DNA of 64,000 nt from Pseudomonadota bacterium (lineage in GTDB: Bacteria > Pseudomonadota > Gammaproteobacteria > Burkholderiales > Burkholderiaceae_C): NCBI GenBank assembly GCA_018241225.1, contig JAFEEG010000025.1:56735-120734 (forward strand), written 5' to 3'. A model generated the notes under the pieces. That model did no database searches. It had not been told where the DNA came from and saw nothing but the letters and a program-made list of their open reading frames with translations. Positions 15,088 to 40,112 of this stretch are shown here, in pieces. Positions within the stretch are counted from its first letter, which is position 1. Each line of letters opens with the position of its first letter. A program made the position numbers and the translations under genes.

Positions 15088-15110
15088 TCTAATCTCGAAC
15101 TTCGATCTAA
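15088..15110 (+). promoter_or_regulatory. Triple TCTAA motif upstream of primase-helicase
   Basis: TCTAA at 15088, TCGAA at 15095 and TCTAA at 15106, giving the 7 and 11 base offsets shared by the early motifs. The primase-helicase ATG follows 14 bases later. Confidence 0.7.
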
Positions 15111-15124
15111 CAACGGTCCATTAC

Positions 15125-17527
15125 ATGAAGATGAATTTCATGCAGGCCTCCGTCCCCCTCACCAAGGCCTATTTCGTTGATTCCGCAGGCACCGTTTCCA
15201 AGACTCCTTACCCCTTCGTTTGGGAGTTCACGAGCATCGAGGCAGCCTGCTCCAACCTCACCCAACTCACCCAGCTCCTGAAGCTCCACGCGTCCAAAGG
15301 TCACTGCCTGCTCAAGGGCACGGCTGCCCGACCCCTGGTCAACGAGTCCCGTGCAGGCAGCACCAACACCAACGACTCGACCGAGTTCCTGGTGCTCGAC
15401 CTGGATGGGCTGCCTGACACCCACGCCGGCAAGCCGCTGACCGTCGATCTCTTCCTGGCTGCCATGGGCCTGTCCGACATCTCCTATGTCATCCAGTGGT
15501 CGGCCAGCTATGGCATCGAGAACAAGAAGCTGCGCGCTCACATCTTCATGCTCCTGGACAAGCCCTACCCTGCCCCTGTGCTCAAGCAGTGGCTCATCCA
15601 GAAGAACTTCGAAGTCCCGCTGCTGGAGACCAACCTCGGACTCACCAAGACCGGCAATGCCCTGTCCTGGCCCCTGGACATCTCGGCTTGCCAGAACGAC
15701 AAGCTCATCTACATCGCGCCCCCGACCCTCAAGGGCATCAAAGACCCCCTTGGTACGGCTGCCCGAATTAACCTCGTGAAGCGCAAGCGCGACACCTTCG
15801 CCCTCAATGGCCAGGTCCACAACATCGAAAAGAACAAGGCGCTCATCCACGCCAAGATCGCTGAACTGCGCAAGAACGCAGGCCTGCCGCCCAAGAAGGT
15901 CACCTACAAGGTCATCGGCAGCACCGAGGTCATGCTCAAGCCTGACGAGGGCACGATCTCCGAGATGAAGACCGAACGCGGCTTCGTCTACTTCAACCTC
16001 AACGGCGGGGACAGCTGGGCCTACTACCACCCCGAGAACAACCCGGACTACATCCTCAACTTCAAGGGTGAGCCGGCCTACCTCACCAAGGAGCTCCTGC
16101 CTGACTACTGGGCGCAGATCACCGCAGCGCCCACACGCACCAGCTCCACGGGCCTGATGTACCTGGCCTTCTGCGACCCGTCCACATCCGCCTACTGGCG
16201 TGGCACCTACGACAGCGCCACCGATTACCTGGACATCAAGACCGCCAGATCCGAAACGCAGCTGCGCGACTTCGCCAAGCAGTACGGCCTGCGCCTGGGC
16301 GACTTCGTGCCGGAATGGGACCTGTCCTTCGACCCCCACGACAACGTGCGCGTCGACCCGAGCAACCGCACAATCAACATGTTCCAGCCCAGCGCTTACA
16401 TGAAGGCGACCCCGAAGAAGGGCGTCAAGTGCCCCAAGACCATCTACAAGGTGATCGATAACGCACTGGGTAGCGACAAGGCGATCACCGACCACTTCAT
16501 CAACTGGCTGGCCTTCATCGTCCAGCAGCGCGACCGCACCAAGACCGCCTGGATCTTGCACGGCGTGCCAGGCACGGGCAAGGGCATCATGATGAACAAC
16601 ATCCTGCGCCCCATCTTCGGCCAGGCCCATACCGCGGCGCGGCGCATGGAGGAGCTGGACGAGAAGTACAACCAGTTCATGGGTCAGTCCTTCATCGTGT
16701 TCGTCGACGAGGTGCAGACCAAGGCACTGAGGAACGAGCGCGGCGTCATGGCCAAGCTCAAGAACTTCATCACCGAGGAGTACGTCCCGGTGCGTGAGAT
16801 GTACGCCACCGCCAAGGAGGCACGCAACTACACGAACTGGATCTTCGCCTCGAACATGGCCGACCCCGTGGCCATCGACAAGGACGACCGGCGTTTCAAC
16901 GTCGCCAAGTACCAGAAGAACAAGCTCATCATCACCGACGCTGAACTTGACGCCATCGAGAAAGAGCTGCAGGCATTCCACGACTATCTGCTGTACTACC
17001 CGATGGACATGGACAAGGCCCGCACGGTGCTGCAGACCGAGGACCGCGAGACGCTCATCAGCATTTCCGAAAGCTCAGTGGACACCGTGGCCAACGCCAT
17101 GCTGCAAGGCGACTTCAGTTTCTTCTTGGACCAGCTGCCAGCCGACAAAGCCCACGAGCGCAACGCGCTGATGAAGAACAAGGTCGAGGACTATCGCGAC
17201 ACGCTCAAGACCTTGATGACACGCACGGACCCGAACGGCCGCTGCAACGCCAGCCGCGAGGAACTGCGCACCGTGTTTGACTTCGTGGTGGGCAACATGC
17301 CGACATCCCCGAACAAGTTCACCAGCCTCCTGAAGCACCACCGCATCCACATGGAAGCGGTGTGGATCGCCGACCCGCTGCACCCCAAGACAGCGCGCGG
17401 CATCAAGCTCGAGTGGCAGGACGTCAAATACTTTGCCAAGTACAGCGCGGAGCACTTCCCGGAGACCACGCCCACGGCAGCGCCCAAGCCGCTAGCCAAG
17501 ATCAAGAAAGAGAAGGCTCTCGCATGA
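15125..17527 (+). CDS. Primase-helicase, SF3 helicase C-terminal domain
   Basis: An 800-residue replication protein. The N-terminal third contains LVLDLDGLP and a later AHIFMLLDKP, which fit the acidic catalytic core of a primase-polymerase-like domain. The C-terminal half is an SF3 (DUF5906/D5-like) helicase: Walker A GVPGTGKG, Walker B-type FIVFVDEV and sensor TNWIFASN followed by DDRRFNV. Such proteins open the phage origin and prime DNA. The start ATG 15125 follows the regulatory motif; a second ATG at 15131 is possible. The stop overlaps a tiny membrane-protein gene. The nearby AT-rich repeat is a natural partner. Confidence 0.85.
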   Translation: MKMNFMQASVPLTKAYFVDSAGTVSKTPYPFVWEFTSIEAACSNLTQLTQLLKLHASKGHCLLKGTAARPLVNESRAGSTNTNDSTEFLVLDLDGLPDTHAGKPLTVDLFLAAMGLSDISYVIQWSASYGIENKKLRAHIFMLLDKPYPAPVLKQWLIQKNFEVPLLETNLGLTKTGNALSWPLDISACQNDKLIYIAPPTLKGIKDPLGTAARINLVKRKRDTFALNGQVHNIEKNKALIHAKIAELRKNAGLPPKKVTYKVIGSTEVMLKPDEGTISEMKTERGFVYFNLNGGDSWAYYHPENNPDYILNFKGEPAYLTKELLPDYWAQITAAPTRTSSTGLMYLAFCDPSTSAYWRGTYDSATDYLDIKTARSETQLRDFAKQYGLRLGDFVPEWDLSFDPHDNVRVDPSNRTINMFQPSAYMKATPKKGVKCPKTIYKVIDNALGSDKAITDHFINWLAFIVQQRDRTKTAWILHGVPGTGKGIMMNNILRPIFGQAHTAARRMEELDEKYNQFMGQSFIVFVDEVQTKALRNERGVMAKLKNFITEEYVPVREMYATAKEARNYTNWIFASNMADPVAIDKDDRRFNVAKYQKNKLIITDAELDAIEKELQAFHDYLLYYPMDMDKARTVLQTEDRETLISISESSVDTVANAMLQGDFSFFLDQLPADKAHERNALMKNKVEDYRDTLKTLMTRTDPNGRCNASREELRTVFDFVVGNMPTSPNKFTSLLKHHRIHMEAVWIADPLHPKTARGIKLEWQDVKYFAKYSAEHFPETTPTAAPKPLAKIKKEKALA

Positions 17528-17655
17528 AATACCTCCTCGTCCCGGCGCTGTGCATCTCGGTCACCGCAGTCGCATTCTTCGCCGTTGGTTATTCCGTCAG
17601 CCAGGCCAACACTGCCAAAAAGATCACGCCGCAGCACGCATGCCTCGTGGTCTAA
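17524..17655 (+). CDS. Tiny membrane or exported peptide
   Basis: A 43-residue protein, MKYLLVPALCISVTAVAFFA continuing VGYSVSQANT. Residues 3-23 are one hydrophobic span that could be an anchor or signal peptide. The ATG overlaps the stop of the primase-helicase gene. Its TAA stop lies inside a TCTAA unit of the next motif. Confidence 0.5.
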   Translation: MKYLLVPALCISVTAVAFFAVGYSVSQANTAKKITPQHACLVV

Positions 17656-17678
17656 TCTAACGTCGAACGACGATCTAA
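17651..17678 (+). promoter_or_regulatory. Triple TCTAA motif (with one extra unit)
   Basis: TCTAA at 17656, TCGAA at 17663 and TCTAA at 17674 keep the 7/11 spacing; an additional TCTAA at 17651 holds the stop codon of the previous gene. The following gene starts at 17691 behind AAGGAA. Confidence 0.7.
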
Positions 17679-17690
17679 GGAACGAAGCCC

Positions 17691-17963
17691 ATGGCTGACC
17701 TTGACCCCCGCCTCCTGACGCTGGAGCCCAGCGCCGATCTGATCCCCGCACTCGTTGCTGCCAAGGACTGGCCTGCCCTGGCCTTCGTGCTCATGGCGCT
17801 GGTGCGCACCATGCACTACCGCGAGGCCAACGAACTTCTCCGCCCCGTCCTCACGGACAACCCAGACTTCTGTACCTGGGCCCTCAAGCCCGAGCAGCGC
17901 GAGATGGTCGATGCGATATTCGAGGCCGCCAAGGCCAGGCATCCGCAGAGGGTTGCACGGTGA
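17691..17963 (+). CDS. Hypothetical phage protein
   Basis: A 90-residue, probably all-helical protein starting MADLDPRLLTLEPSADLIPA. Helix-hairpin-like segments (WPALAFVLMALVRTMHYREA and KPEQREMVDAIFEAAKARHP). It is the first gene of the unit that carries the Cys-rich array and is coupled to the next gene (GTGA overlap). Unknown function. Confidence 0.6.
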   Translation: MADLDPRLLTLEPSADLIPALVAAKDWPALAFVLMALVRTMHYREANELLRPVLTDNPDFCTWALKPEQREMVDAIFEAAKARHPQRVAR

Positions 17964-18250
17964 CTGAGCTCACCACGCTCGAGGTCCCTATGCCCGAGCG
18001 CGACGGCGAACTCGTCTGGTCACCACTCGCAAGCATGGACCTCATGACTGTGGCTCGCGGCGAAAACGAATGCCGCGCCGGTGCAGTGTGGTGCATCTTC
18101 GCGTTTCCGCCAGGCACCCCCAAGAACCAACTCGCACATAAATGCGGCCAGCACGAGTGCGGCACTGTCGACAAAAGAACCGGCACCCTCAGCCGCATCG
18201 TCATCTGGCTGCGCCCCGAAGACTATCCACTCGCGAGGCTGACACGATGA
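17960..18250 (+). CDS. Cys-rich array protein 1
   Basis: A 96-residue protein (GTG start) with WCIFAF, then KCGQHECG, and the C-terminus IVIWLRPEDYPLARLTR. It is the first of five adjacent paralogues sharing C-x-F, a C-x(3,4)-C pair and a terminal IW...Y..LRLT segment. Cys spacing suggests a zinc site. The stop is fused to the next start as ATGA. Family not recognised. Confidence 0.65.
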   Translation: MTELTTLEVPMPERDGELVWSPLASMDLMTVARGENECRAGAVWCIFAFPPGTPKNQLAHKCGQHECGTVDKRTGTLSRIVIWLRPEDYPLARLTR

Positions 18251-18522
18251 ACCACCCCTACACGCGCACCGTCGATGGCAACATCGCCATGCCTGAAGTC
18301 GGCGAGTTCATCATCGACCCATATACGAAGACCGAACTCACCGTCTGGCCCCACATTGGATGCGACGGTGCGATCGTGAAGTGCGTCTTCAGCAGCGGTA
18401 TCAACCACGACTTCTGCCATCAGTGCACTGTCGTCGCCCGCAACGGCGACCTAACGCATCCCGTCATCTGGGTTGATCGCGAGACCTACGCCCTCGCGCG
18501 TCTGACGGGAGCGCATAAATGA
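18247..18522 (+). CDS. Cys-rich array protein 2
   Basis: A 91-residue paralogue starting MNHPYTRTVDGNIAMPEVGE with KCVFSSG, FCHQC and the C-terminus VIWVDRETYALARLTGAHK. The junction to the next gene is nearly identical in DNA to the following junction, indicating recent duplication. Confidence 0.65.
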   Translation: MNHPYTRTVDGNIAMPEVGEFIIDPYTKTELTVWPHIGCDGAIVKCVFSSGINHDFCHQCTVVARNGDLTHPVIWVDRETYALARLTGAHK

Positions 18523-18767
18523 TCTACCCCAAAGAAGGCGAGATCGCCGCCGTGCCCGACACCGACAGGAAGGTCATCACAATACGCGCAAGGCGAGGCT
18601 ACTGCAACGTGGACGGTATGTATTGCGCGTTCTACCACGTACCTCGCGGCGACCTCTGCAACGAGCGCGCTTGTTCCTCCACATACCACGACGGCCCCGA
18701 GCACGACCTGGCATTCATCGACGTCGACGTCTGGGCGACGTATCGCCTCACGGGAGCGCACAAATGA
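18519..18767 (+). CDS. Cys-rich array protein 3
   Basis: An 82-residue paralogue starting MIYPKEGEIAAVPDTDRKVI with YCAFYHV, LCNERACS and the C-terminus FIDVDVWATYRLTGAHK. Its first five codons match the first codons of protein 4 (MIYPK), another sign that the array grew by duplication. Confidence 0.65.
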   Translation: MIYPKEGEIAAVPDTDRKVITIRARRGYCNVDGMYCAFYHVPRGDLCNERACSSTYHDGPEHDLAFIDVDVWATYRLTGAHK

Positions 18768-19024
18768 TCTACCCCAAACTCAACGAGTGGGTCTACTCCC
18801 CCGAGCTGGGCCGCGAGATCACGGCGCTCAAGGCCCGCAGCGGCTCATGCTACGCGCAAGGTTCACACCGGCCTTGCATGTTCCAAGACACCACCCAGCA
18901 AGACCGTCACCACGGTTTCTGCGATGTGTTCAGCTGCTCGCCGAACGGTAGCAACGCTTTCCACCTCATCTTCCTGGACCGCGCACGCTGGGCCGAGATG
19001 CAGCTGCTGCGAGGCGTCAAATGA
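18764..19024 (+). CDS. Cys-rich array protein 4
   Basis: An 86-residue paralogue starting MIYPKLNEWVYSPELGREIT with PCMFQD, FCDVFSC and the C-terminus FLDRARWAEMQLLRGVK, where the RLT tail has drifted to QLLRG. Confidence 0.65.
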   Translation: MIYPKLNEWVYSPELGREITALKARSGSCYAQGSHRPCMFQDTTQQDRHHGFCDVFSCSPNGSNAFHLIFLDRARWAEMQLLRGVK

Positions 19025-19272
19025 CCGAACGCATCGACGTATACATTTCCGCCCCGGTCGCTAGCGGCGTACCTGTCGATTCGCCGGCCGGCCCCGTTAC
19101 GTGTGTCAAGGACGACGACGGTAGATGTTCCGTCGGCGACAAAGTGGATTGCGTATTCAACGACGATCAATTTCGATGCACGACTGTGTACTGCTCAGGC
19201 GTCATTTGGATCAAACAAGAGGACTACCCCACTCTTCGACTCCTGGGTCACGTCGAACCCTTCACACCATGA
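19021..19272 (+). CDS. Cys-rich array protein 5
   Basis: An 83-residue paralogue with VTCVKDDDGRCS, DCVFNDDQFRC and TTVYCSGVIWIKQEDYP, then TLRLLGHV and a short extra tail. The last member; the junction downstream no longer follows the array pattern. Confidence 0.65.
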   Translation: MTERIDVYISAPVASGVPVDSPAGPVTCVKDDDGRCSVGDKVDCVFNDDQFRCTTVYCSGVIWIKQEDYPTLRLLGHVEPFTP

Positions 19273-19454
19273 ACGTCATCCTCGGCAAACATTTCACCGG
19301 CGAGCCCCAGGGCTACGCCGACACGCGTACCGGCGAGTTCTGGCAAGTCCTGCCGCCGGTGAACTCCATCATCCAGCAGGCGCTGATCAAGTCGCCGCCG
19401 AACAAGGGCGAGCACGCTCGCATGCTTGCACTGAGCAGAAAGAAGCTGTCGTGA
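19269..19454 (+). CDS. Small hypothetical protein
   Basis: A 61-residue protein starting MNVILGKHFTGEPQGYADTR and ending ALSRKKLS. The ATG overlaps the end of array protein 5 and the stop overlaps the next GTG start. The middle reads GEFWQVLPPVNSIIQQALI. Function unknown. Confidence 0.55.
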   Translation: MNVILGKHFTGEPQGYADTRTGEFWQVLPPVNSIIQQALIKSPPNKGEHARMLALSRKKLS

Positions 19455-20237: not shown

Positions 20238-20275
20238 GCGCCAAGAATTCTCCACCCCGCAGCTCTAAGCTGTGT

Positions 20276-20303
20276 TCTAATCTAATCTCTTACTTCGATC
20301 TAA
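20276..20303 (+). promoter_or_regulatory. Triple TCTAA motif (with one extra unit)
   Basis: TCTAA at 20281, TCTTA at 20288, TCTAA at 20299 and an extra TCTAA at 20276. The next start codon is 9 bases downstream without a clear ribosome site. Confidence 0.7.
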
Positions 20304-20312
20304 GCTGACTCC

Positions 20313-20486: not shown

Positions 20487-20495
20487 GCATGTGCC

Positions 20496-21082: not shown

Positions 21083-21089
21083 CCCGTTC

Positions 21090-21112
21090 TCTAACCTCTA
21101 AGGTGGATCTAA
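21090..21112 (+). promoter_or_regulatory. Triple TCTAA motif upstream of MoxR gene
   Basis: TCTAA at 21090, 21097 and 21108, the cleanest 7/11 example. Only two bases separate it from the MoxR start codon, and the AGGTGG between repeats 2 and 3 is the only ribosome-site candidate. Confidence 0.75.
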
Positions 21113-21114
21113 CC

Positions 21115-22140
21115 ATGAAGCCAAGCCAAGTCTCCTCTGCCCTCAAGCACCTCGTCGCCAAGCAACGCCCCGTCTTCGTCTGGGGCCCGCCCGGCGCCGG
21201 CAAGTCCGACGTGGTGCGCCAGGTCGCCAATGACCTCGAAATGAACCTGCGCGACGTGCGTCTGTCGCTCCTGGACCCGATCGACCTGAAGGGCTTCCCC
21301 GTGGTCGACAAGGAGAACGACCAGATGGCCTGGGTACCGGCCAACTTCCTGCCGCCCATGATGGTCAAGGGCAAGAACGGCAAGATGGTGCCCAACGAAG
21401 AGCACGGCATCCTGTTCCTGGACGAGATGAACAGCGCCCCACAGGCGGTGCAGGCAGCGGCCTATCAGCTGATCCTCAATCGCTGCATCGGCGACTACGT
21501 ACTGCCCAAGAACATCGCCATGATCGCGGCCGGCAACCGCTCGGGCGATCGCGCCGTGACGCACCAGATGCCCTCGCCGCTGGCCAACCGCTTCGTGCAC
21601 ATCGACTACGACGTGCACATGGACGACTGGTACAACTGGGCGACCGAGAACAACATCTCGCCGATGGTGCGTGCGTTCATCCGCTTCCGCCCGAACCTGC
21701 TGCACAGTTTCGACCCGAAGGAGAACCCGCGCGCGTTCCCCTCGCCGCGTTCCTGGACCTTCGTCAACGACATCGTCGGCTCGAACCTGGACTCGGCCGT
21801 CGAGATGGAGCTGATCAAAGGCACGGTCGGTGAAGGCCCGATGACCGAGTACATCGCGTTCGCCAACATCGCCAAGGATCTGCCGACCGTCGATCAGATC
21901 TTGATGGCGCCCGAGAAGACCGAGGTGCCCAGCTCGCCAGCGGCCAAGTACGCCCTGTGCACGGCACTGGACAAGAAGGCCACCAAGGACAACCTGGAGC
22001 GCGTGCTCAAGTACGTCGGCCGCATGGAGACCGAGTACCAGGTGCTGTTCCTGCGCTCGGTGCTGCTGAACGACCGCGCGCTGTCCCAGACCAAGGCGTT
22101 CACGGAATGGGCCGCAAAGAACCAAGCCGTGCTGATGTAA
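21115..22140 (+). CDS. MoxR-type AAA ATPase
   Basis: A 341-residue ATPase. Walker A is GPPGAGKS (about residues 24-31), Walker B GILFLDEMNSAP, and sensor IAMIAAGNRSGD, typical of the MoxR/CbbQ branch of AAA+ proteins that remodel protein complexes together with VWA-domain partners. The gene heads a transcription unit after a TCTAA motif; VWA proteins are encoded at 26,009 and 27,315. Homologous ATPase-VWA pairs are known in N4-like phages. The substrate here is unknown. Confidence 0.88.
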   Translation: MKPSQVSSALKHLVAKQRPVFVWGPPGAGKSDVVRQVANDLEMNLRDVRLSLLDPIDLKGFPVVDKENDQMAWVPANFLPPMMVKGKNGKMVPNEEHGILFLDEMNSAPQAVQAAAYQLILNRCIGDYVLPKNIAMIAAGNRSGDRAVTHQMPSPLANRFVHIDYDVHMDDWYNWATENNISPMVRAFIRFRPNLLHSFDPKENPRAFPSPRSWTFVNDIVGSNLDSAVEMELIKGTVGEGPMTEYIAFANIAKDLPTVDQILMAPEKTEVPSSPAAKYALCTALDKKATKDNLERVLKYVGRMETEYQVLFLRSVLLNDRALSQTKAFTEWAAKNQAVLM

Positions 22141-24037: not shown

Positions 24038-24228
24038 CCGGCGCAGCCAACGAGTTCGGCGTCTTCCCCAGATCACCCTATTTCAGGTGGTCGCAGGAGA
24101 AGTGGAGCGCCTACTTGAAATGGCTCGGCAAGACAGGTCGTATCACGTCGACCCACAGCGAACAGCAAAACATCAAGGCCTTCGAACTCCACTGGACCAC
24201 CCAACGACTTCTAGGAGAAATCAAGTGA
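24034..24228 (+). CDS. W/RLTR array protein 9
   Basis: A 64-residue protein starting MTGAANEFGVFPRSPYFRWS with KWSAYLKWLGKTGR; C-terminus FELHWTTQRLLGEIK, close to member 7. Last of the array; coupled to the 24,225 gene by GTGA. Confidence 0.6.
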   Translation: MTGAANEFGVFPRSPYFRWSQEKWSAYLKWLGKTGRITSTHSEQQNIKAFELHWTTQRLLGEIK

Positions 24229-25058
24229 CCATCATCCAGAACAAAGCGATGCTCGTGGACCTGTCCATCTCCATGTGGACCGCCACCAAGCACGACAAGA
24301 CCGTCTCGGCCGAGGTCGAGCGCGCCCACGGTGCCAAGGACGCCGGGCGCTACAACAAGGCGCTCATCGACAAGAGCTACCTGGAGCCCATCTCCAAGAT
24401 CGCCAACGCCGCGCGCCAGTACCACTACTCGCGCACTCTGCCTTGGACCGACAAGGGCCAGCGCCTGCTGCCCTCGATCCTCTTCACCGACTACTCGGCC
24501 GAGCTACGCAAGCTCAAGGCCGAGTTCAGCAAGGCCGTCGACGCCTTCCTGCAGGTCTATCCTGATCTGCGTGACAAGGCACGCACGCGCCTGGGCACCA
24601 TGTTCAATCCCGAGGACTACCCGCAGGGCTGGGAGCTGCGCGACAAGTTCGCCATCGACACCGAGATCTTCCCGGTGCCCGATGCGCAGGACTTTCGCGT
24701 CGACCTGGCTAACGAACAGCGCGATGAGATTCAGGCCTCGATCACCAAGGCCGTAACCTCACGCCAGGCCAAGGCCGTGAAGGACTGCTACCAGCGCGTG
24801 CGCGAAGTCGTGGCCCGCATCAGCGAGCAGTGCGGCAAGGAAAAGGGCCGCATCCACGACTCGCTCATGGACAACGCGCGCGACCTGTGCGGCGTGCTCA
24901 GTGGTCTGAATATCACCGATGACCCCGACATCAAGCAGCTGGAGCGTGACATCGCCACGATGCTGGTTGACCCGCAAGCCCTGCGCGACTCGCCCGTCGA
25001 GCGCAAGAAAGCGGCGGACGCGGCCGACGAGATTCTGAAGAAGCTGGGGGTGTTGTGA
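24225..25058 (+). CDS. Hypothetical helical phage protein, DUF3150-like
   Basis: A 277-residue protein from GTG 24225 behind TAGGAG. It starts MTIIQNKAMLVDLSISMWTA and contains GAKDAGRYNKALIDKSYLEP. The layout (short N-terminal strand, then long helices; ARQYHYSRTLPWTDKGQRLL) resembles DUF3150-type proteins that I recall near phage MoxR ATPases and VWA proteins. This link is from memory and context. It probably acts with the MoxR/VWA genes of the same unit. Confidence 0.6.
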   Translation: MTIIQNKAMLVDLSISMWTATKHDKTVSAEVERAHGAKDAGRYNKALIDKSYLEPISKIANAARQYHYSRTLPWTDKGQRLLPSILFTDYSAELRKLKAEFSKAVDAFLQVYPDLRDKARTRLGTMFNPEDYPQGWELRDKFAIDTEIFPVPDAQDFRVDLANEQRDEIQASITKAVTSRQAKAVKDCYQRVREVVARISEQCGKEKGRIHDSLMDNARDLCGVLSGLNITDDPDIKQLERDIATMLVDPQALRDSPVERKKAADAADEILKKLGVL

Positions 25059-25771: not shown

Positions 25772-25773
25772 AC

Positions 25774-25932
25774 ATGGCCCAGCACTTCCGCACCGTCAGC
25801 CTCTACCCCACGCCGGCTGAGCTTTTCGAGCTGGCCGCCGAGCTCAAGCTCGCCAACCCTGACTGGACCGACGCACGCTGCAAGCAACGCGCCGTCGTGG
25901 TGTGGCATCTTCGCTTGACCTCTAACGTCTAA
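25774..25932 (+). CDS. Small hypothetical protein
   Basis: A 52-residue protein, MAQHFRTVSLYPTPAELFEL to VVVWHLRLTSNV. Its last codons and TAA stop run into the next regulatory motif: the stop is the TAA of the second TCTAA unit. The C-terminal RLT is reminiscent of the array tails. Confidence 0.5.
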   Translation: MAQHFRTVSLYPTPAELFELAAELKLANPDWTDARCKQRAVVVWHLRLTSNV

Positions 25933-25943
25933 CTACGATCTAA
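25921..25943 (+). promoter_or_regulatory. Triple TCTAA motif upstream of VWA gene
   Basis: TCTAA at 25921, 25928 and 25939 (7/11). It overlaps the 3' end of the preceding gene and lies 66 bases before the VWA start, the longest leader in the set. Confidence 0.75.
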
Positions 25944-26008: not shown

Positions 26009-26617
26009 ATGACCATCACCGCAATCGAATCCAAGCTGTCCGAGTACGACTTCATCGTCGTGATCGACACGTCCGGCTCCATGGGCGAGCCCCTGAAGGC
26101 CGGCTCCTCGCGCAGCCGCTGGGAAGCCATGCAGGAAAGCGTTGGCGTCTTCGTGCGCGACATCGAGAAGCTCGACAGCGACGGCATCGACGTGGTGCAG
26201 CTGGGTGGCTCGGTGAACTCCTGGCACGGCGTCACCAGCGCCAAGGTCAGCGAGCTGTTCGCCTCCCTGTCGCCGCGTGGCAGCACGCCCCTGGCCGAAG
26301 CCCTGACCACCGCCTTCGCCGCCGCCGGCAAATCGGACAAGAAGGACTTCATCATCGTCTTCACGGACGGTGTGCCGGACGACCAGGGCGCTGCCAAGCA
26401 AGTCATCCTGAACCAGGCCAACAAGCAGACCAACGACGACGACTGCACCGTGCTGTTCGTCCAGGTGGGCGACGACGCACGCGCCACGGCCTACCTGCGC
26501 GGCCTGGACGATGACCTGCGCGGCGCCAAGTTCGACATCGTGGACGCCAAGACCATGATCGAGGCCGAAGCCTTCGCCACCACCTCCGAGCTGGTGCTGG
26601 CCGCCATCAACGACTGA
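26009..26617 (+). CDS. VWA domain protein
   Basis: A 202-residue single von Willebrand A domain. The metal-ion (MIDAS) site is complete: DTSGS near residue 19, a Thr in the RGSTPLAEAL loop and Asp in FTDGVPDD. TerY-like single-domain VWA proteins bind partner proteins through the metal. It stands between the MoxR ATPase and the metallopeptidase-VWA gene and has its own motif and terminator, so it forms a monocistronic unit or the head of a short one. Confidence 0.87.
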   Translation: MTITAIESKLSEYDFIVVIDTSGSMGEPLKAGSSRSRWEAMQESVGVFVRDIEKLDSDGIDVVQLGGSVNSWHGVTSAKVSELFASLSPRGSTPLAEALTTAFAAAGKSDKKDFIIVFTDGVPDDQGAAKQVILNQANKQTNDDDCTVLFVQVGDDARATAYLRGLDDDLRGAKFDIVDAKTMIEAEAFATTSELVLAAIND

Positions 26618-27007: not shown

Positions 27008-27272
27008 AGACGATTACCCCGACGCAGATTCCTCGCCCGTCGATCCGCCCCCTCACGCAGGCTTCAACACCTACGTCTTCCCTGACGAAGCAATCCACTT
27101 CCGCGGCCTGAGCTGCGGCATCAGCGAGTTCCCTTTCGTCGACGGCTTCTTCCTCACGGAGCTGATCGTCACCGGCACCATCAAAGACAACTGCACTCGC
27201 GTCCTCTCCGGGCCTTTCGAGACCTTCGGGGCCGCTGCGGCGGCACAGCGTCTCTTTGGCACTCAAATCTAA
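27000..27272 (+). CDS. Small hypothetical protein
   Basis: A 90-residue protein from GTG 27000, starting MSKDDYPDADSSPVDPPPHA, then a beta-like part with IHFRGLSCGISEFPFVDG and ELIVTGTIKDNCTRVLSGP. The stop TAA is the TAA of the first unit of the next TCTAA motif. Confidence 0.55.
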   Translation: MSKDDYPDADSSPVDPPPHAGFNTYVFPDEAIHFRGLSCGISEFPFVDGFFLTELIVTGTIKDNCTRVLSGPFETFGAAAAAQRLFGTQI

Positions 27273-27301
27273 TGTCTAACGTTTCACGTGAAACGATCTA
27301 A
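27268..27301 (+). promoter_or_regulatory. Stretched triple TCTAA motif with embedded palindrome
   Basis: TCTAA at 27268, 27275 and 27297. The first offset is the usual 7, but the second is 22 instead of 11, exactly one extra 11-base step. The extra DNA forms most of a GTTTCACGTGAAAC palindrome. The following gene starts at 27315 behind AAGGAAG. Confidence 0.75.
27281..27294. promoter_or_regulatory. parS-like palindrome
   Basis: GTTTCACGTGAAAC is a perfect 14-base palindrome identical to the core of the canonical bacterial parS site recognised by chromosomal ParB. No parA/parB genes are in the window. The single copy lies inside a phage regulatory motif, so binding by host ParB or by a phage protein is possible. 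Confidence 0.6.
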
Positions 27302-27314: not shown

Positions 27315-28445
27315 ATGAACCAAGCAGCTCTCGACAAACTGACCTTGGCCCGCAGCCAGCTGATCCTGGACCACGGCTTCTTCGGCATGCTCGCCCTGCG
27401 CCTGAAGCTCAAGGAGATGCCCGAGGTCCAGCGCCAGGCCATGATCGCGCGCGGCATGCGCCCCACCCTGGCGGTGAACGGCAAGGAAGTCTTCTACGAC
27501 CCGGACTTCATCCTCACCCTGACCGCGCCGCTGGCCAAGGCGGCGCTGGCCCACGAGGTGATGCACTGCGTCTTCGAACACATCGGCCGGCGCGGTGAGC
27601 GCAACCCGATGAAGTGGAACAAGGCTGGCGACTACGTCATCAACCAGGTGCTCAAGGATTCCGGCTTCGAGCTGGGCGAAGGCTGGCTGTTCGAGCCGGC
27701 ATTCAACAACATGACTGCCGACCATATCTACAACCTCCTGGACGACGACCAGGACGGCGGCGGTGGTGGTGGCAGCGGCGATCCGCTGTGCGACATCATG
27801 GACGGCGACCCCGGCGACATGGCGCAGCAAGAGGTCGAGTGGAAGGTGGCCACCGTCCAGGCCGCCCAGGCGGCCAAGATGCAGGGCAACCTGCCCGCTT
27901 CGATGAAGCGCTTCGTCGAAGACCTCACCGCGCCCCAGGTGAACTGGCGCGAGCAGCTGCAGCGCTTCGTGACCCAGATCTCGAAGAACGACTACAGCTG
28001 GATGCGCCCGAACAAGCGCTTCCTGGAACGCGGCTTCTACCTGCCGACGCTCTACAGCGAGAGCATGGGCACGATGTTCATCGGCATCGACACCTCGGGT
28101 TCGATCGACCAGCCGACGCTCAACGCCTTCGGCGCCGAGATCAAGGCGATCCATGCGGCGGTGCGCCCCGAACGCCTGGTTGTCGCCTACTGCGACGCGG
28201 CCATCAACCATGTCGACGAGTTCGGCCCGAACGATGAGCTGCACTTCGACATGCACGGCGGCGGTGGTACCGACATGCGCAAGCTGTTCGAGTACGTCGA
28301 AGAGAACGCCCTCAACCCCGAGTGCATGGCGGTGCTGACTGATCTCTACACGCCATTTCCTGACCACATCGACCACCCGACGCTGTGGGTCGCAACCACT
28401 GACGGCACGGCTCCTGTTGGCGAGACGATCCGCATCAAGGTATGA
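27315..28445 (+). CDS. Metallopeptidase-like/VWA-like protein (DUF2201-type)
   Basis: A 376-residue protein in two parts. The N-terminal part has HEVMHCVFEH at residues 80-89, an HExxH zinc-protease motif with an additional His. The C-terminal part, from about residue 255, is a VWA-like domain with DTSGS and a later TDLYTPFP. This order is that of the DUF2201 putative metallopeptidase family, usually encoded next to MoxR ATPases. A Gly/Asp-rich linker (DDDQDGGGGGGSGDP) lies between. It may bind and possibly cut a target presented by the ATPase; the target is unknown. Confidence 0.85.
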   Translation: MNQAALDKLTLARSQLILDHGFFGMLALRLKLKEMPEVQRQAMIARGMRPTLAVNGKEVFYDPDFILTLTAPLAKAALAHEVMHCVFEHIGRRGERNPMKWNKAGDYVINQVLKDSGFELGEGWLFEPAFNNMTADHIYNLLDDDQDGGGGGGSGDPLCDIMDGDPGDMAQQEVEWKVATVQAAQAAKMQGNLPASMKRFVEDLTAPQVNWREQLQRFVTQISKNDYSWMRPNKRFLERGFYLPTLYSESMGTMFIGIDTSGSIDQPTLNAFGAEIKAIHAAVRPERLVVAYCDAAINHVDEFGPNDELHFDMHGGGGTDMRKLFEYVEENALNPECMAVLTDLYTPFPDHIDHPTLWVATTDGTAPVGETIRIKV

Positions 28446-29085: not shown

Positions 29086-29339
29086 AGCTCGTGCGCAAGG
29101 ACAACCACGCCATCGCCATCACCGGCACGCTCGAAAAACTGCTCGGCACTTGCGACATCGCTGATGCCGAGATGGTCGACGGCGAACTGGAGCTCACCTA
29201 CGGCGGTTACACCGAAGTCGACTGGGACTCTCAGGAGACGTTCATGCACGACGGCCAGCGCATTTTCATCGACGAAGGCGGCTCTCAGGTTCTCGAGAGC
29301 GAAGTCGAACTGATCGACGACGAGGACCACGAAGCATGA
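29082..29339 (+). CDS. Small acidic hypothetical protein
   Basis: An 85-residue acidic, beta-rich protein starting MKLVRKDNHAIAITGTLEKL, ending LIDDEDHEA. Overlaps the next gene by four bases. Unknown function. Confidence 0.55.
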   Translation: MKLVRKDNHAIAITGTLEKLLGTCDIADAEMVDGELELTYGGYTEVDWDSQETFMHDGQRIFIDEGGSQVLESEVELIDDEDHEA

Positions 29340-29812
29340 CCCCCGCTCGTCTCGCCCGCCTGGAAAGCAGCCTGAACGGCACAGCGCGCAAGGTGCTCAG
29401 CGCCGTGCCGCTGCAGGAGCCCTGGAGCAAGGAACAGATCATGTCCGAGCTGCGCCGTGTGGGCTCCTCCCTCAGCCCCGACGCCATGGTCGGTTCTCTC
29501 AACTTCATGACCGACCGCGGCCTCGTCAAAGAGGCTGAGCGCGGCAAGTTCATCCGCATCCAAGCGCGTTTGATCGAAAACCAACCCGAGCCCGAAGAAA
29601 TGCAGACCGTCACTCTCAAGCAAGTACCCAAACAAGGCGTCCCTAAGACCGACGTGCTCACGCGCCTGGCAGGCCTGGCCTCCGATCTGCGCACCATCGC
29701 CACCGAGATCGACGCCGTTGCGCTCGATGTGGAAGAGCGCTTCGCCGCGATCCAGAAGGACAGCGAGAAGCTGCGCCAGTTCACGGAGCTGCTCAAGAGC
29801 CTGGGAACGTAG
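29336..29812 (+). CDS. Winged-helix-like protein with C-terminal coiled coil
   Basis: A 158-residue protein. Residues about 15-75 have the pattern of a winged helix (SKEQIMSELRRVGSSLSPDA; LNFMTDRGLVKEAERGKFIR). Residues about 110-155 form a coiled coil (IATEIDAVALDVEERFAAIQ) that could mediate oligomerisation. It is one of two such proteins in the phage (the other at 39,640) and a candidate reader of the TCTAA repeats; that link is speculation. Confidence 0.6.
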   Translation: MTPARLARLESSLNGTARKVLSAVPLQEPWSKEQIMSELRRVGSSLSPDAMVGSLNFMTDRGLVKEAERGKFIRIQARLIENQPEPEEMQTVTLKQVPKQGVPKTDVLTRLAGLASDLRTIATEIDAVALDVEERFAAIQKDSEKLRQFTELLKSLGT

Positions 29813-29834
29813 CTCGTCTTTTCGCGCCTCGTAA

Positions 29835-29857
29835 TCTACAATCTAACTTCGATCTAA
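29835..29857 (+). promoter_or_regulatory. Triple TCTAA motif upstream of the replication unit
   Basis: TCTAC at 29835, TCTAA at 29842 and 29853 (7/11). It precedes the unit with RecB-like nuclease, SNF2 helicase and DNA polymerase. Confidence 0.75.
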
Positions 29858-29870
29858 CGAAGGCAATCTG

Positions 29871-34969: not shown

Positions 34970-34976
34970 GGAACAG

Positions 34977-35174: not shown

Positions 35175-35176
35175 CT

Positions 35177-36171: not shown

Positions 36172-36202
36172 TCTAACTTCTAATTGCGATCTATCTTAGA
36201 TT
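36172..36202 (+). promoter_or_regulatory. Triple TCTAA motif combined with GATCTA-N3-TAGATT palindrome
   Basis: TCTAA at 36172 and 36179 and TCTAT at 36190 follow the 7/11 pattern. The third unit is also the left half of GATCTA-TCT-TAGATT (36188-36202), the late-arm palindrome. This is the only plain site that carries both layouts. Confidence 0.7.
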
Positions 36203-36235
36203 GCTGTACATTCCATTCAACCAAAGGAAATGCAC

Positions 36236-36679
36236 ATGTCCGCTGTTCTCCCCCTGGACAAGACCGTGAAGGTACAGCGCGCCGCCAAGCGCCTCCTCGG
36301 CGAACCCACGATCGGCTCCGACATCGACTCGATGTGGAACCTGCGCGAGAAGAAGCGCGGCCTGGAGGCCGAGGCTTCGAAGATCGAAAAAGAGATCGCT
36401 GAGATCGAAGAGCGCCTCATGAAAAACATGAGCGAGCAAGGCGTGGAGAAGTCCACCGGCTCCAAGGCCAGCGTCTCGATCACCGAATCCATCGTGGCCG
36501 ACGTCACCGACTGGGACAAGTTCTACGCCTACATCGGCAAGAACAAGGCCTGGCAGTTGCTGCAGCGCCGCGTCTCCGACCCCGCCTGGCGCGAACTGGC
36601 CAAGGACGGCGACAAGCCGCTGCCTGGCACCCAACCCTTCAAGAAGCGTCGCCTGAACCTGCGCACGCTGTCCTCCTGA
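36236..36679 (+). CDS. Hypothetical phage protein with coiled coil
   Basis: A 147-residue protein. ATG 36236 is chosen over ATG 36230 because of the spacing to AAAGGAAA. Residues about 30-65 form a coiled coil (REKKRGLEAEASKIEKEIAE). The C-terminal part (DWDKFYAYIGKNKAWQLLQR; RVSDPAWREL) resembles phage Gp-type proteins that precede ssDNA-binding proteins. Unknown function. Confidence 0.65.
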   Translation: MSAVLPLDKTVKVQRAAKRLLGEPTIGSDIDSMWNLREKKRGLEAEASKIEKEIAEIEERLMKNMSEQGVEKSTGSKASVSITESIVADVTDWDKFYAYIGKNKAWQLLQRRVSDPAWRELAKDGDKPLPGTQPFKKRRLNLRTLSS

Positions 36680-36708
36680 TCCCCTCCCCTCCCGAAAAGG
36701 AATCCACC

Positions 36709-37503
36709 ATGGCTACTGCCAAGAAGACCCCTGCTGCCGCGGCCACCAAGCCCGGCACCGCTGTCGCCGTCAAGAAGGCCAGCAACGTCGTCAACATCCA
36801 GGAGCTGCTGAAGAAGCAGGCCGAGGAGATGGCGGGCCGTACTCAAGGCCCCGGCGGCAACTCCATCCGCATCTCCCAGGACAAGAACTTCCTGCTGCCC
36901 GATGGCAGCAAGACGCCCGGCCCCCTGCAGCTGGTGATCGTCGACTTCATCTCGCGCAACGAGTTCTACGCCGGCCAGTACGACAAGGACAACATCGTCC
37001 CGCCGGACTGCTTCGCCATCGGCGTGGACCCCAAGGGCCTGGTGCCCAGCAACAGCTCGCCGGCCAAGCAGTCGGACGAAGGCTGCAATGCCTGCCCCAT
37101 GAACGTGTTTGGCTCGGCTGGCAACGGCAAGGCCTGCAAGAACACCCGCATGATGGCCGTGCTGCCGCCCGACGCCGATGCCGAGACCGAGCTGTGGACC
37201 CTCAAGGTCTCGCCCACGGGCCTCAAGAGCTTCGACGGCTACGTGAACAACGTGGCGCGCACCTTCGGCGCCCCGCCGGTGGCTGTCGTGACCGAAGTGT
37301 CGTTCGATCCGAACAGCGACTGGCCGTCGCTGCGCTTCGCTGACCCGCAGCCCAACGAGAACGTCGGCACGCACTTCGCCCGCCAGGCCGAAGCCAAGGA
37401 GCTGCTCGAACGCGAGCCCGACCTGACCCAGCGCGCGGCTGCCCCGGCCAAGCCGGCTCGCCCGCAAGCGCGCGGTCGCGTGGCTGCCGGCGCCCGCCGC
37501 TAA
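36709..37503 (+). CDS. Probable phage ssDNA-binding/replication accessory protein
   Basis: A 264-residue protein with low-complexity Ala/Lys ends and a conserved centre (NSIRISQDKNFLLPDGS; EGCNACPMNVFGSAGNGKAC). Four Cys in the centre suggest zinc. The place in the operon, after polymerase genes and before DNA-processing nucleases, and the disordered C-terminus suggest an ssDNA-binding protein. The acidic tail of a classical SSB is absent, so the function is inferred only. Confidence 0.5.
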   Translation: MATAKKTPAAAATKPGTAVAVKKASNVVNIQELLKKQAEEMAGRTQGPGGNSIRISQDKNFLLPDGSKTPGPLQLVIVDFISRNEFYAGQYDKDNIVPPDCFAIGVDPKGLVPSNSSPAKQSDEGCNACPMNVFGSAGNGKACKNTRMMAVLPPDADAETELWTLKVSPTGLKSFDGYVNNVARTFGAPPVAVVTEVSFDPNSDWPSLRFADPQPNENVGTHFARQAEAKELLEREPDLTQRAAAPAKPARPQARGRVAAGARR

Positions 37504-37513
37504 GGCCTAAGAC

Positions 37514-37792
37514 GTGACCGTCAAGGCGTCCTGGCTGGTCACACGAGCGCTGGATTCCTATCCGGCGCTCGTGGCAGTGCTGAACGAATTGACGCACGCA
37601 GATGTGATCGCCGCACTCGAGCTCGAGAGCAGCACACGACGACGGCACTCATTCATTGAGCGCCTGATCTCCCGAGCCGTCCGGCTCAATGAGCTTTCCT
37701 ACAAACGCCAACTACAGGAGCAATTCCATGGCACGCACCCCCAAGCAAGCACCCGTTCTGACCCCGGCCGAAAAGAAGGCAAAAAAGGCTGA
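37514..37792 (+). CDS. Hypothetical protein, partly overlapping
   Basis: A 92-residue frame from GTG 37514, MTVKASWLVTRALDSYPALV with a helical, basic remainder (RRRHSFIERLISRAVRLNEL). Its last 65 bases overlap the next gene in a different frame, so the end may not be accurate. Moderate support from composition. Confidence 0.45.
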   Translation: MTVKASWLVTRALDSYPALVAVLNELTHADVIAALELESSTRRRHSFIERLISRAVRLNELSYKRQLQEQFHGTHPQASTRSDPGRKEGKKG

Positions 37793-38045
37793 CCTGAAGG
37801 TCGCCCTGAAGGTGATCAACGACGAGCACGCCAAGTACGTCAGCGACTCCAAGGCTGCCGACAAGGCACTCAAGGATCTCCTGAAGGAGCAGGCCAAGGC
37901 CGTCAACGCCCAGTCCAAGGTGGTGAACGACGCCGCCAAGAAGCTGGCCAAGGCCACCGAAGCCGCCGAGAAGGGCCGCGCCAAGATCCAGGCACAGCTG
38001 GCCGACCTCGAGCCGGCCAAAGACCCGGTGAACGCCGCCGTCTGA
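37728..38045 (+). CDS. Lys/Ala-rich helical protein
   Basis: A 105-residue protein starting MARTPKQAPVLTPAEKKAKK behind ACAGGAG. It is almost entirely a Lys/Ala/Asp coiled coil (AKAVNAQSKVVNDAAKKLAK), histone-H1-like in composition. It may bind DNA or form filaments. Followed by a strong terminator. Confidence 0.65.
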   Translation: MARTPKQAPVLTPAEKKAKKADLKVALKVINDEHAKYVSDSKAADKALKDLLKEQAKAVNAQSKVVNDAAKKLAKATEAAEKGRAKIQAQLADLEPAKDPVNAAV

Positions 38046-38074
38046 AGTCACGACGGGCAACTGCACGTAGAGAC

Positions 38075-38102
38075 GCCACGCCCTCAGCGGCGTGGCTTTT
38101 TT
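38075..38102 (+). terminator. Rho-independent terminator
   Basis: Stem GCCACGCC (38075-38082) with GGCGTGGC (38089-38096), followed by TTTTTT. Confidence 0.88.
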
Positions 38103-38128
38103 CGAACCCTCGTTGGGATGGCGCGTAA

Positions 38129-38677
38129 ATGATGAAGCATGTGATGGTTGATTTGGAAACCCTCGGCACGACAGCGAGCGCTGTGATCATGTCCGTTGGT
38201 GCCGTCAAGTTCGACCTGACAACGAATGAGATCGATGAGACCGGCTTCTACGCCAGCATCTCAATCGACAGCAACCTGGACCTCGGCCGCCGCATCCAAG
38301 AAGACACCCTCATGTGGTGGTTCAAGCAGGATGCCGCCGCGCAGAAGGTCTTCAACGAACCCAAGGTGTCGCTCGAATCGGCCCTTGTCGACCTCTCCGA
38401 CTGGATCGGCACCACCGACTACCTCGTGTGGAGCAACGGCGCCGACTTCGACATCCCAATGCTGGCACATGCCTACAGCCAGATCATGGTCGAGGTGCCC
38501 TGGAAGCCGTACAGCGCGCGCTGCATGCGCACCTACAAGAACCTGCCTGGCGCCGACCGCGTGCGCATCGAGAAGGCCGGTATCTCCCACAACGCACTCG
38601 CCGACGCCATCAACCAAGTGCGCCAGCTGCAGGCCATTCACGCCGCCCTGTTCGGCAAGAAGAAGGTGACCGCATGA
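38129..38677 (+). CDS. DEDD 3'-5' exonuclease (Rv2179c-like)
   Basis: A 182-residue nuclease. The DEDD residues are in MVDLETLGT (D-x-E), WSNGADFDIPML and HNALADAINQ. This is the pattern of the Rv2179c/T4 DexA-like exonuclease family that degrades single-stranded DNA or RNA. There is no TCTAA motif before it although a terminator precedes it by 27 bases, so it may be read through from upstream. Coupled to the next gene. Confidence 0.85.
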   Translation: MMKHVMVDLETLGTTASAVIMSVGAVKFDLTTNEIDETGFYASISIDSNLDLGRRIQEDTLMWWFKQDAAAQKVFNEPKVSLESALVDLSDWIGTTDYLVWSNGADFDIPMLAHAYSQIMVEVPWKPYSARCMRTYKNLPGADRVRIEKAGISHNALADAINQVRQLQAIHAALFGKKKVTA

Positions 38678-38970
38678 AGACCCCCGCCGCCAAACCCGCC
38701 GCAGCCGACATCACCTCCACGCTGGAGGAGCGCGGCAAGCGCTACGGCAAGTTCACGGGGCATGCCGAGATCACCCAGGGCCTGAAGGATCTGATGCGCT
38801 GCTGCGACAAGTGGAATGTCCTGGCCGCTGACCAGAAGGAAGCGCTCGAGATGGTGGCCCACAAGATCGGCCGCATCCTCAACGGCGACCCGAACTACGA
38901 CGACAGCTGGGTGGACATCGCCGGCTACAGCAAGCTCGTCGCTGACCGCCTGCAAGGCACCGTGCGATGA
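38674..38970 (+). CDS. DUF6378 family phage protein
   Basis: A 98-residue protein starting MKTPAAKPAAADITSTLEER. The segment GKRYGKFTGHAEITQGLKDL with DQKEALEMVAHKIGRILNGD and DSWVDIAGYSKLVADRLQG matches DUF6378 as I know it, a family often listed near MazG-type proteins. The biochemical role is not established. Confidence 0.8.
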   Translation: MKTPAAKPAAADITSTLEERGKRYGKFTGHAEITQGLKDLMRCCDKWNVLAADQKEALEMVAHKIGRILNGDPNYDDSWVDIAGYSKLVADRLQGTVR

Positions 38971-39401
38971 GCACTGGACCCGAGAACACCTTCATCAAGT
39001 CGGTACACGGACATCTGCCCGCTGCCGTCTACCACATGAAGAACCACAACGAGTACATCGCCGGGCCCGCTGATGTCTGGTACAGCGGCGCTGCCGGCGA
39101 TGTGTGGATCGAATACAAGTTCATCAACGTTCCCGCACGCCCCGACACCGTGATCGATCTAATCACGCCGAAGGGCAAAGGTGACGCGATCATCACCACG
39201 CTTCAGCAGGACTGGTTGCGTGCACGCGACCGTGAAGGCCGACGCGTGGGTGTGATCGTCGGCAGTAAAGACGGCGGCATCTGGCTGCCGGGAGTGGACT
39301 GGAGTTGCCGCTTTACTGCCGCTGAGTTTCTCAAGCGCCTCAAGTCTCGCAAACAGCTGGCGGACACCATTCGCAATATTGTCCTGACGCCAGGAATGTG
39401 A
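38967..39401 (+). CDS. PD-(D/E)XK-type endonuclease
   Basis: A 144-residue protein. The stretch AGPADVWYSG followed by GDVWIEYKFI is an ADxW...E-x-K core of VRR-NUC or Holliday-junction-type nucleases. It is preceded and followed by DNA-metabolism genes. Probably resolves or cuts branched phage DNA; specific activity not shown. Confidence 0.7.
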   Translation: MSTGPENTFIKSVHGHLPAAVYHMKNHNEYIAGPADVWYSGAAGDVWIEYKFINVPARPDTVIDLITPKGKGDAIITTLQQDWLRARDREGRRVGVIVGSKDGGIWLPGVDWSCRFTAAEFLKRLKSRKQLADTIRNIVLTPGM

Positions 39402-39404
39402 AGA

Positions 39405-39620
39405 ATGGACGAACGCTTTCTAGAGCAGGCTGAGGAGCTGACCAACCTCCAAGTCGAAGCCGCTATAGCGGCTGCACGTCGCAGGGAGTCTGCGCCCCTT
39501 AACTTCGACGGAACGTGCAATTGTGGGGAGTCTGTCCCTCAAGAGCGCGTTCGACTTGGGTACTATCGCTGTTTGGACTGCCAAACGGCGCTGGAGAAAA
39601 AAGGGCGCCTGGCACGCTAA
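39405..39620 (+). CDS. DksA/TraR-type zinc-finger protein
   Basis: A 71-residue protein starting MDERFLEQAEELTNLQVEAA, with CNCGESVPQERVRLGYYRCL then DCQTALEKKGR. The four Cys and the LGYYRCLDCQ context are those of the short TraR/DksA family. These proteins bind the RNA polymerase secondary channel and change promoter choice. A phage copy could tune host transcription in favour of phage promoters. Confidence 0.8.
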   Translation: MDERFLEQAEELTNLQVEAAIAAARRRESAPLNFDGTCNCGESVPQERVRLGYYRCLDCQTALEKKGRLAR

Positions 39621-39639
39621 AAACTCCCGGAGAAACGCC

Positions 39640-40041
39640 TTGGCACAAAACGAAGACGGACTGTTTCCAGTCCTGAGTTCCATCCTAAAAGCATCAAGCA
39701 CACCGCTTGATTGCAATCAGCTCTACGACTTGCCAGAAGTAAAAGAGCATGCCGCCTCCCCTAACCGTGTATCGGACTACCTAGGGAATTTGTGGCGGAA
39801 AGGCTTTGTAGTTAGACACGTCCAGGCGCGCACCGAAAGCTCTCGTGCGCGCTTTTCCTATGAGTGGAAAGACAAGAAATCTAAGGTCGGCGCGGGAGCT
39901 AAAGCTTCCACAGCTAAGGAAGGTATTGAGTACGCTCCTCGCGTCTTAGCTGATAGGCCTTCGATGGTGATTACTGAGGAAGGCAACACCGTCAGCATTG
40001 AGTTGCCGAACTTGATCATCGTCATCAAGCAGAAGACCTAA
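39640..40041 (+). CDS. Winged-helix-like regulator candidate
   Basis: A 133-residue protein with a TTG start at 39640 behind CCGGAG. The N-terminal part is winged-helix-like (GLFPVLSSILKASSTPLDCN; SPNRVSDYLGNLWRKGFVVR); the C-terminal end has SIELPNLIIVIKQ. It appears less GC-rich than the surroundings. With the 29,336 protein it is a candidate DNA-binding regulator of the phage. Followed by a strong terminator. Confidence 0.55.
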   Translation: MAQNEDGLFPVLSSILKASSTPLDCNQLYDLPEVKEHAASPNRVSDYLGNLWRKGFVVRHVQARTESSRARFSYEWKDKKSKVGAGAKASTAKEGIEYAPRVLADRPSMVITEEGNTVSIELPNLIIVIKQKT

Positions 40042-40054
40042 ACAACTTTGAGTA

Positions 40055-40078
40055 GGCCTCGACTCCGAGGCCTTTTTT
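40055..40078 (+). terminator. Rho-independent terminator
   Basis: Stem GGCCTCG (40055-40061) with CGAGGCC (40066-40072) followed by TTTTTT. Only 11 bases separate it from the next TCTAA motif. Confidence 0.88.
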
Positions 40079-40089
40079 CGCCCATCAAA

Positions 40090-40112
40090 TCTAATGTCTA
40101 AGTTCGATCTAC
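40090..40112 (+). promoter_or_regulatory. Triple TCTAA motif overlapping a start codon
   Basis: TCTAA at 40090 and 40097 and TCTAC at 40108 (7/11). The ATG of the next gene (40094) lies inside the motif, so the motif encodes the first residues of that protein. Confidence 0.7.

Follow-up and report, generated by a model that had tools for sequence, protein, structure and literature searches.

The window analysed here is a stretch of 64,000 nucleotides from a Burkholderiaceae_C bacterium (assembly GCA_018241225.1, contig JAFEEG010000025.1; G000:C17:56735-120734 in our numbering) with a whole host genome of 6.41 Mb, and it holds part of a prophage along which a 23-bp array of short half-sites recurs, mostly at gene starts. 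Between 15.1 and 40.4 kb the genes run rightward and include primase-like, ATPase, exonuclease and polymerase genes among others, and left of 11.5 kb they run leftward and include small-terminase-like and capsid-type genes among others. Genes were called with our own codon-usage caller, which missed some short genes. The array sites and the features that form their setting are the following, in window positions unless stated otherwise:

679–701, minus strand: operator-like site, 6 bp before the minus-strand gene 484–672
3473–3495, minus strand: weak site of 14.0 bits; the capsid-type gene 2238–3356 begins 116 bp downstream
11463–11485, minus strand: operator-like site, directly adjoining the small-terminase-like gene 10858–11463 at its start; TTGCGA-18-TAAAAT overlaps the site
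15088–15110, plus strand: operator-like site, 14 bp before ATG 15125 of the primase-like gene 15125–17527
17656–17678, plus strand: operator-like site, 12 bp before ATG 17691; the stop of the preceding gene lies in an additional TCTAA (17651)
20281–20303, plus strand: operator-like site, 9 bp before ATG 20313
21090–21112, plus strand: operator-like site, 2 bp before ATG 21115 of the ATPase gene
25921–25943, plus strand: operator-like site, 65 bp before the gene 26009–26617; box 2 holds the stop of the gene 25774–25932
27268–27301, plus strand: split operator-like site, with boxes 1–2, an 11-bp net insertion forming a parS, then CGATCTAA; 13 bp before ATG 27315
29835–29857, plus strand: operator-like site, 13 bp before ATG 29871 of an exonuclease-like gene
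36172–36194, plus strand: operator-like site, lying across the -35 of a putative sigma-70-like promoter for the gene 36236–36679
36184–36212, plus strand: putative promoter TTGCGA-17-TACATT, a sigma-70-like pair by sequence
39640–40041, plus strand: predicted winged-helix protein, the proposed binder, 133 aa, TTG start, in 8/8 relatives read
40090–40112, plus strand: operator-like site, overlapping ATG 40094 of the gene 40094–40369, just after a terminator-like hairpin that follows the winged-helix gene
43691–43738, no strand: attR, 48 bp of tRNA-Val; identical copy (attL) at G000:C17:30146-30193
L084:9652, beyond the left edge of the window, in the leftward region: further weak site, near-palindromic, 18.3 bits; about 48 bp ahead of a minus-strand gene

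The tRNA-Val gene occupies 43691–43767 and an integrase gene (41848–42858) lies nearby, its family match having been obtained with the overlapping longer frame 41779–42858. Since the exact 48-bp tRNA copy marks the other end, the whole constitutes a prophage of about 70.3 kb; a search for its ends within L084 alone found none.

The initial annotation had described nine sites with three copies of TCTAA or a one-base variant, and all nine read as claimed, eight of them contiguous and one split. The eight fit TCTAA-N2-TCTAA-N6-TCTAA with 0 or 1 mismatch, corresponding to the reported spacing of 7 and 11 bp, and the exception at 27268 indeed carries its third copy 22 bp after the second. The TAA stops said to be supplied by sites at 17653, 25930 and 27270 agree with the gene calls, and a further stop codon lies inside a site on the minus strand (697–699). 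The unit, however, is not a set of three direct repeats, but a 23-bp array of four half-sites, TCTAAnnTCTAA-S-TTMGA-TCKAA, which point right, right, left and right, the third copy of the earlier description corresponding to box 4. From 101 distinct sites we derived the consensus TCTAA-nc-TCTAA-S-TTMGA-TCKAA with the half-site TCKAA, in which two palindromes overlap, an 11-bp one made of boxes 2 and 3 (TCTAA-S-TTAGA) and a 10-bp one made of boxes 3 and 4 (TTAGATCTAA). Position 10 (T/G) and position 16 (A/C) vary independently of each other (counts of 50, 32, 10 and 8; Fisher p 0.79), and this absence of covariation between the palindrome halves is a misfit to a base-paired RNA stem or hairpin. 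No conserved -35 element was found upstream of the aligned sites.

The same 23-bp array is shared by the sites across nine phage genomes or parts of genomes, namely the window and eight relatives that were read (seven virus records and part of a Variovorax contig), which were chosen for their motif matches. In this set direct spacings of 7 bp (43 pairs), 11 bp (13) and 18 bp (16) were prominent versus at most 6 pairs for any other spacing up to 40 bp, as were inverted spacings of 6 bp (68) and 13 bp (34) versus at most 12 for the rest, both strands being counted. The proposed spacing is accordingly conserved in related prophages, with the inverted 6 bp as an additional hallmark.

Within the window, ten contiguous matches were obtained at up to 2 mismatches versus a mean of 0.01 in 100 shuffles. 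Two of these, 679–701 and 11463–11485, had been missed earlier; both are on the minus strand, each before a minus-strand gene. The arrays are therefore not restricted to early genes, since the leftward packaging and capsid-type operons have sites as well (679 and 11463, with the weaker 3473 and L084:9652), and the copies over the phage amount to the ten contiguous sites and the split site in the window together with these two weak ones. The bare TCTAA pattern proved non-specific by itself, as its use with up to 3 mismatches on the 6.41-Mb genome gave 12 matches (10 in the window, 2 elsewhere) versus 13 in the reversed control. The refined 17-base pattern TCTAANNTCTANNNNCGATCTAA, in contrast, is confined to the prophage: at up to 3 mismatches the whole genome yielded 10 matches, all in the window and all within the 70-kb prophage, versus 1 in the control. 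A weight matrix built from relatives only (91 sites) scored the ten contiguous window sites at 25.1–32.4 bits and the next window match at 14.5 bits, and the host part of the window reached at best 2.0 bits with a matrix including the window sites.

Using the polymerase gene as query we collected 33 related virus loci and ran the refined pattern on the own genome and 24 of these, resulting in matches in 14 of the 25 genomes or records (52 matches versus 8 in the reversed control). Exact matches in the whole collections fell on 18 viral and 8 genome stretches, with several of the viral ones near-identical. One of the 8 belongs to a prophage of Variovorax sp. J22R133, whose genome gave 8 matches, with 7 falling in a single stretch of contig C10, versus 4 in controls; among the other seven, a Limnohabitans genome gave 14 versus 10 in controls, and no inference was drawn from these seven. 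A matrix retrained on the relatives and the window returned 265 matches in 558,571 bases versus 13 in simulated sequence twice as long, a count in which a palindromic core scored on both strands counts twice. The phage KPP25, whose capsid and polymerase are 64% and 37% identical, had no site above 10.6 bits and no match to the winged-helix protein, and L165 had no site above 13.4 bits.

At the final threshold the nine genomes contain 100 sites, of which 64 are at a gene start on the same strand, 2 at a gene start on the opposite strand, 8 inside genes and 26 near no called gene. This distribution (64 to 2 among the 66 gene-start sites) bears out the claim that the sites are oriented with transcription, and both opposite-strand sites have near-palindromic cores. 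Of the same-strand sites 42/64 precede the start codon by 0–39 bp. The gene calls account for 68% of the scanned sequence, and several of the 26 sites without a gene lie at gene starts on reading.

The exact placement differs between orthologous groups. At 36172 the motif lies across the -35 of a sigma-70-like TTGCGA-17-TACATT pair, with the -10 in the same place in seven sequences, the window and six aligned relatives, and TTGCGA exact in four; the earlier statement that no -35/-10 pair accompanies the sites thus fails here. For the primase group, a TACACT word directly follows the motif in G023, G005 and G029, though not in the window, G345 and G027, and at 11463 the motif ends at the start codon. 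In the 40090 group the start codon lies within the motif in 7/8 aligned sequences and the reading frame is conserved onward from the motif, with a Leu or Phe codon right after it that is variously CTA, CTC, TTT or TTG; the gene 40094–40369 was found in 6/8 relatives. At some other loci (e.g. L107, L125) the start codon follows the motif. By eye, the winged-helix gene is followed in many relatives by a terminator-like hairpin (40042–40090 and orthologues), with the site beginning shortly downstream, which leaves the next gene little room for a promoter of its own. A motif position that varies in this way suits steric repression or a roadblock rather than a promoter. Weight-matrix scoring for sigma-70 around the window sites placed 5/12 sites above the 90th percentile of 83 gene starts; as the AT-rich motif itself inflates this score, only the 36172 case is used.

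Present in 8/8 of the relatives read, the previously unannotated product of 39640–40041 is a regulator-like protein with 46–63% identity over seven aligned rows, the G032 copy having been left out of the alignment for an in-frame stop as sequenced. Its AlphaFold model (block-mean pLDDT 89–91 for residues 11–60) comprises helices 25–29, 32–35 and 41–53 and strands 57–61 and 72–76, and the most invariant stretch, NRVSDYLG..WRKG in most members, spans the third helix of the predicted domain. Fold searches matched MarR-, Fur-, PadR- and MecI-type winged helices and plant methyltransferases, the latter presumably through their winged domains, all with E >0.01, and sequence searches against Pfam and PDB failed to place the protein in any credible family. 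A tblastn search of 50,697 phage records returned no match at E 0.01, and among 61 genomes of the host genus the protein occurs only in its own genome. Among 62 loci found by the protein alone, 51 have sites, with 136 sites in total versus 0 in one simulated copy each; with duplicates collapsed, 38/48 loci have sites, 98 on the strand of the protein and 9 on the other. Ten of the 48 collapsed loci lack a canonical site, and five of these encode the most divergent proteins (29–34% identical, helix ...LGHMWRR...). All five records with divergent proteins carry the variant CTCTAACGNNRTCTDAT (12 exact matches versus 0 in reversed controls), 5 of the 12 matches lying outside the stretches inspected when the pattern was written. 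The divergent clade is accompanied by an altered site, the site change paralleling the protein change, and the 39640–40041 protein is most likely the binder of the array. Two other phage proteins were set aside: 29336–29812, a possible winged-helix protein found in only 1/8 relatives and without profile similarity to the 39640 family, and the excisionase-like 41651–42016, found in 5/8 relatives.

An array of conserved spacing and strand bias, confined to the prophage, kept in related phages and co-occurring with one protein family, is best explained as the dispersed repressor operator of a temperate phage, most likely bound by the 39640 protein, which would keep the prophage silent; we assign this a probability of roughly 0.6. 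From these sequence patterns we infer that the protein may bind the array, that binding would repress, and that the whole may constitute an immunity system. The winged-helix protein would bind the TCKAA half-sites as two or more cooperating subunits. A site overlapping a promoter would block initiation, as at 36172 and its orthologues and possibly at 11463, whereas most sites, which lie in a short and probably transcribed gap at the next start codon, would act as directional roadblocks to elongation, and the many scattered transcription units of the prophage could thereby be kept silent.

Several observations weigh against this explanation. The overlap with the promoter at 36172 was not observed at the corresponding position of G334 and G335, and an activator could likewise use variable positions at some promoters. 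Eleven of the 25 genomes or records have no match to the refined pattern, even if at least four of them (L130, L138, L143, L145) have sites by the later matrix, and the eight relatives read were themselves selected on motif matches. In L110, L139, L147, L148 and L151 the protein is encoded but no site exceeds the threshold; in L110, L139, L148 and L151 degenerate versions of the site stand just after the protein gene on reading. Since loci fetched by the protein are relatives, the co-occurrence may reflect descent shared with any universal gene. The best PDB fold match has E 0.013, none reaching E 0.001, and the variant pattern CTCTAACGNNRTCTDAT was formulated after inspecting the divergent loci.

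Alternatively, the array could be a regulon operator bound by another phage protein or a host factor, with the winged-helix protein as a bystander. Other genes are indeed present in 8/8 relatives, e.g. the small terminase, a protein type that often binds DNA, but where labelled these genes resemble replication or packaging genes; the refined pattern has no host match outside the prophage, which argues against a host regulon, and the change of the site tracks that of the protein. We therefore regard this alternative as unlikely. The initial annotation had left open whether the sites resemble T7-like phage promoters or L5-like stoperators, and the second comparison is favoured: the sites are scattered and lie mainly between genes, point along transcription, stay within the prophage and recur in related phages. 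Phage-specific promoters, recognised by a T7-like polymerase, a phage sigma factor or an activator and giving transcripts that start at or just after box 4, would account for sites that open many units and point downstream, and -10-like words do occur inside the motif (TCTAAT; TAAAAT at 11463). Such promoters seem distinctly improbable to us. At a T7-like promoter transcription begins where the motif ends, ahead of the start codon, whereas in 7/8 sequences of the 40090 group the start codon lies inside the motif with the frame continuing, and of the codons that follow only TTG could serve as a start, which excludes a promoter whose start point is downstream of the motif; furthermore, the 36172 site precedes a separate -35/-10 pair, a conserved upstream -35 is absent, and the subset of phage proteins that was searched yielded neither a phage RNA polymerase nor a sigma factor.

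Regulation at the level of the messenger RNA has a precedent in phage T4 RegA, which uses translational operators at ribosome-binding sites, and a similar role for the array would agree with its sense orientation, its closeness to start codons and the Shine-Dalgarno-like words seen by eye within some motifs. The halves of the palindrome lack the covariation of a stem, though, and the putative 36172 transcript would begin downstream of the site. The co-occurring protein is a predicted winged helix, usually a DNA binder, and an 11-bp insertion is tolerated at 27268; this insertion moves the two parts of the site by about one helical turn, which fits DNA binding. Translational operators are accordingly the explanation to which we give very little weight.

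We read the dispersed repressor operator as an L5/P1-like system with an apparently unrelated repressor. The stoperators of L5 and other Cluster A phages are 13-bp sites, GGTGGMTGTCAAG, bound by a monomer (PMC5712189, PMC3029335, PMC9283540). They likewise are numerous, dispersed, mainly intergenic and oriented with transcription; they occur at promoters and between genes, as the array would with the promoter-like pair at 36172, and differ in consensus between clades together with the repressor, as the array does with its candidate protein. In contrast to these asymmetric 13-bp GGTGGMTGTCAAG sites, the array described here is a 23-bp TCKAA array with a palindromic core and an inverted pair, often abuts or overlaps start codons, and belongs to phages of a Variovorax, of the present host and from virus contigs. 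The L5 repressor gp71 has a helix-turn-helix (HTH) and a Stoperator domain, and the candidate here is a protein of 133 aa with one predicted winged helix; two Foldseek searches gave no Cluster A repressor among the 50 matches listed for each, a weak test of gp71 homology.

Phage P1 has 22 dispersed C1 operators with the consensus ATTGCTCTAATAAATTT, each a single asymmetric 17-bp site or a bivalent pair (PMC8546580; AF234172 annotation). These are also repressor operators dispersed across one temperate phage genome, and their consensus contains CTCTAA, which in a by-eye comparison is all that is shared with ATTGCTCTAATAAATTT. An hhalign comparison of the C1 protein (283 aa, from the c1.100 copy) with the winged-helix family revealed no similarity (probability 0.2%, E 0.37). 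As the array differs from L5 in its consensus and its candidate protein lacks homology to C1, it is assigned to neither system. Repeated motifs, typically between genes, were also described for the Nostoc phages A-1 (43) and N-1 (21), where promoters or stoperators were considered (PMC4916379); in orientation, the feature compared, these intergenic motifs differ from ours, as they are not consistently aligned with genes. In the accessible parts of the open-access literature on stoperators, dispersed or asymmetric-operator repressors and TCTAA intergenic motifs, we found no description of the present system.

In the site at 27268, CGTTTCACGTGAAACG pushes the two parts exactly 11 bp apart and forms a host-type parS within it:

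27281–27294, no strand: parS-type palindrome GTTTCACGTGAAAC, within the split site 27268
L085:16409: host-type parS
G000:C10:352342: host-type parS

The host genome has one other exact copy of this 14-mer and one with a mismatch, in genes that we take to be gidA/mnmG and gidB/rsmG, the usual neighbourhood of a chromosomal parS. In the Variovorax prophage the orthologue of the downstream gene is preceded by the same composite, which the other seven relatives lack in the 110 bp ahead of that gene. The gene behind the split site (27315–28445, PHROG label HNH endonuclease) is present in 8/8 relatives. A speculative and rather doubtful extension is that the repressor circuit of the phage is wired to host chromosome segregation, where host ParB and the repressor would share or compete for the composite and 27315–28445 would respond to ParB loading. 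In KPP25 a parS, TGTTCCACGTGGAACA, presumably of Pseudomonas type, is located upstream of the major structural (capsid) gene (L103:16590).

Among the neighbouring genes, 21115–22140 encodes a phage ATPase found in 7/8 relatives, which we assume to be perhaps MoxR-like. The same replication arm contains 24225–25058, a DUF3150-like protein below the Pfam cut-off that is present in 8/8 relatives, and 26009–26617, VWA-like by eye only. In the gap between the integrase and the tRNA gene, 43524–43663, four TCTAA words occur in 140 bp with a spacing other than 7/11, and these are possibly integrase arm sites.

To our knowledge, control by dispersed operators has been worked out mainly in L5-like mycobacteriophages and P1. 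If the proposed role is true, the array would be a further case of such control, exerted by an apparently unrelated protein in a phage group known mostly from virus contigs, and the composite parS, should its reading hold, would connect prophage control directly with chromosome segregation. With a named candidate repressor, about 100 natural site variants and a second specificity class, these phages offer a resource for testing by what means a small protein could work at promoters as well as at elongation sites.

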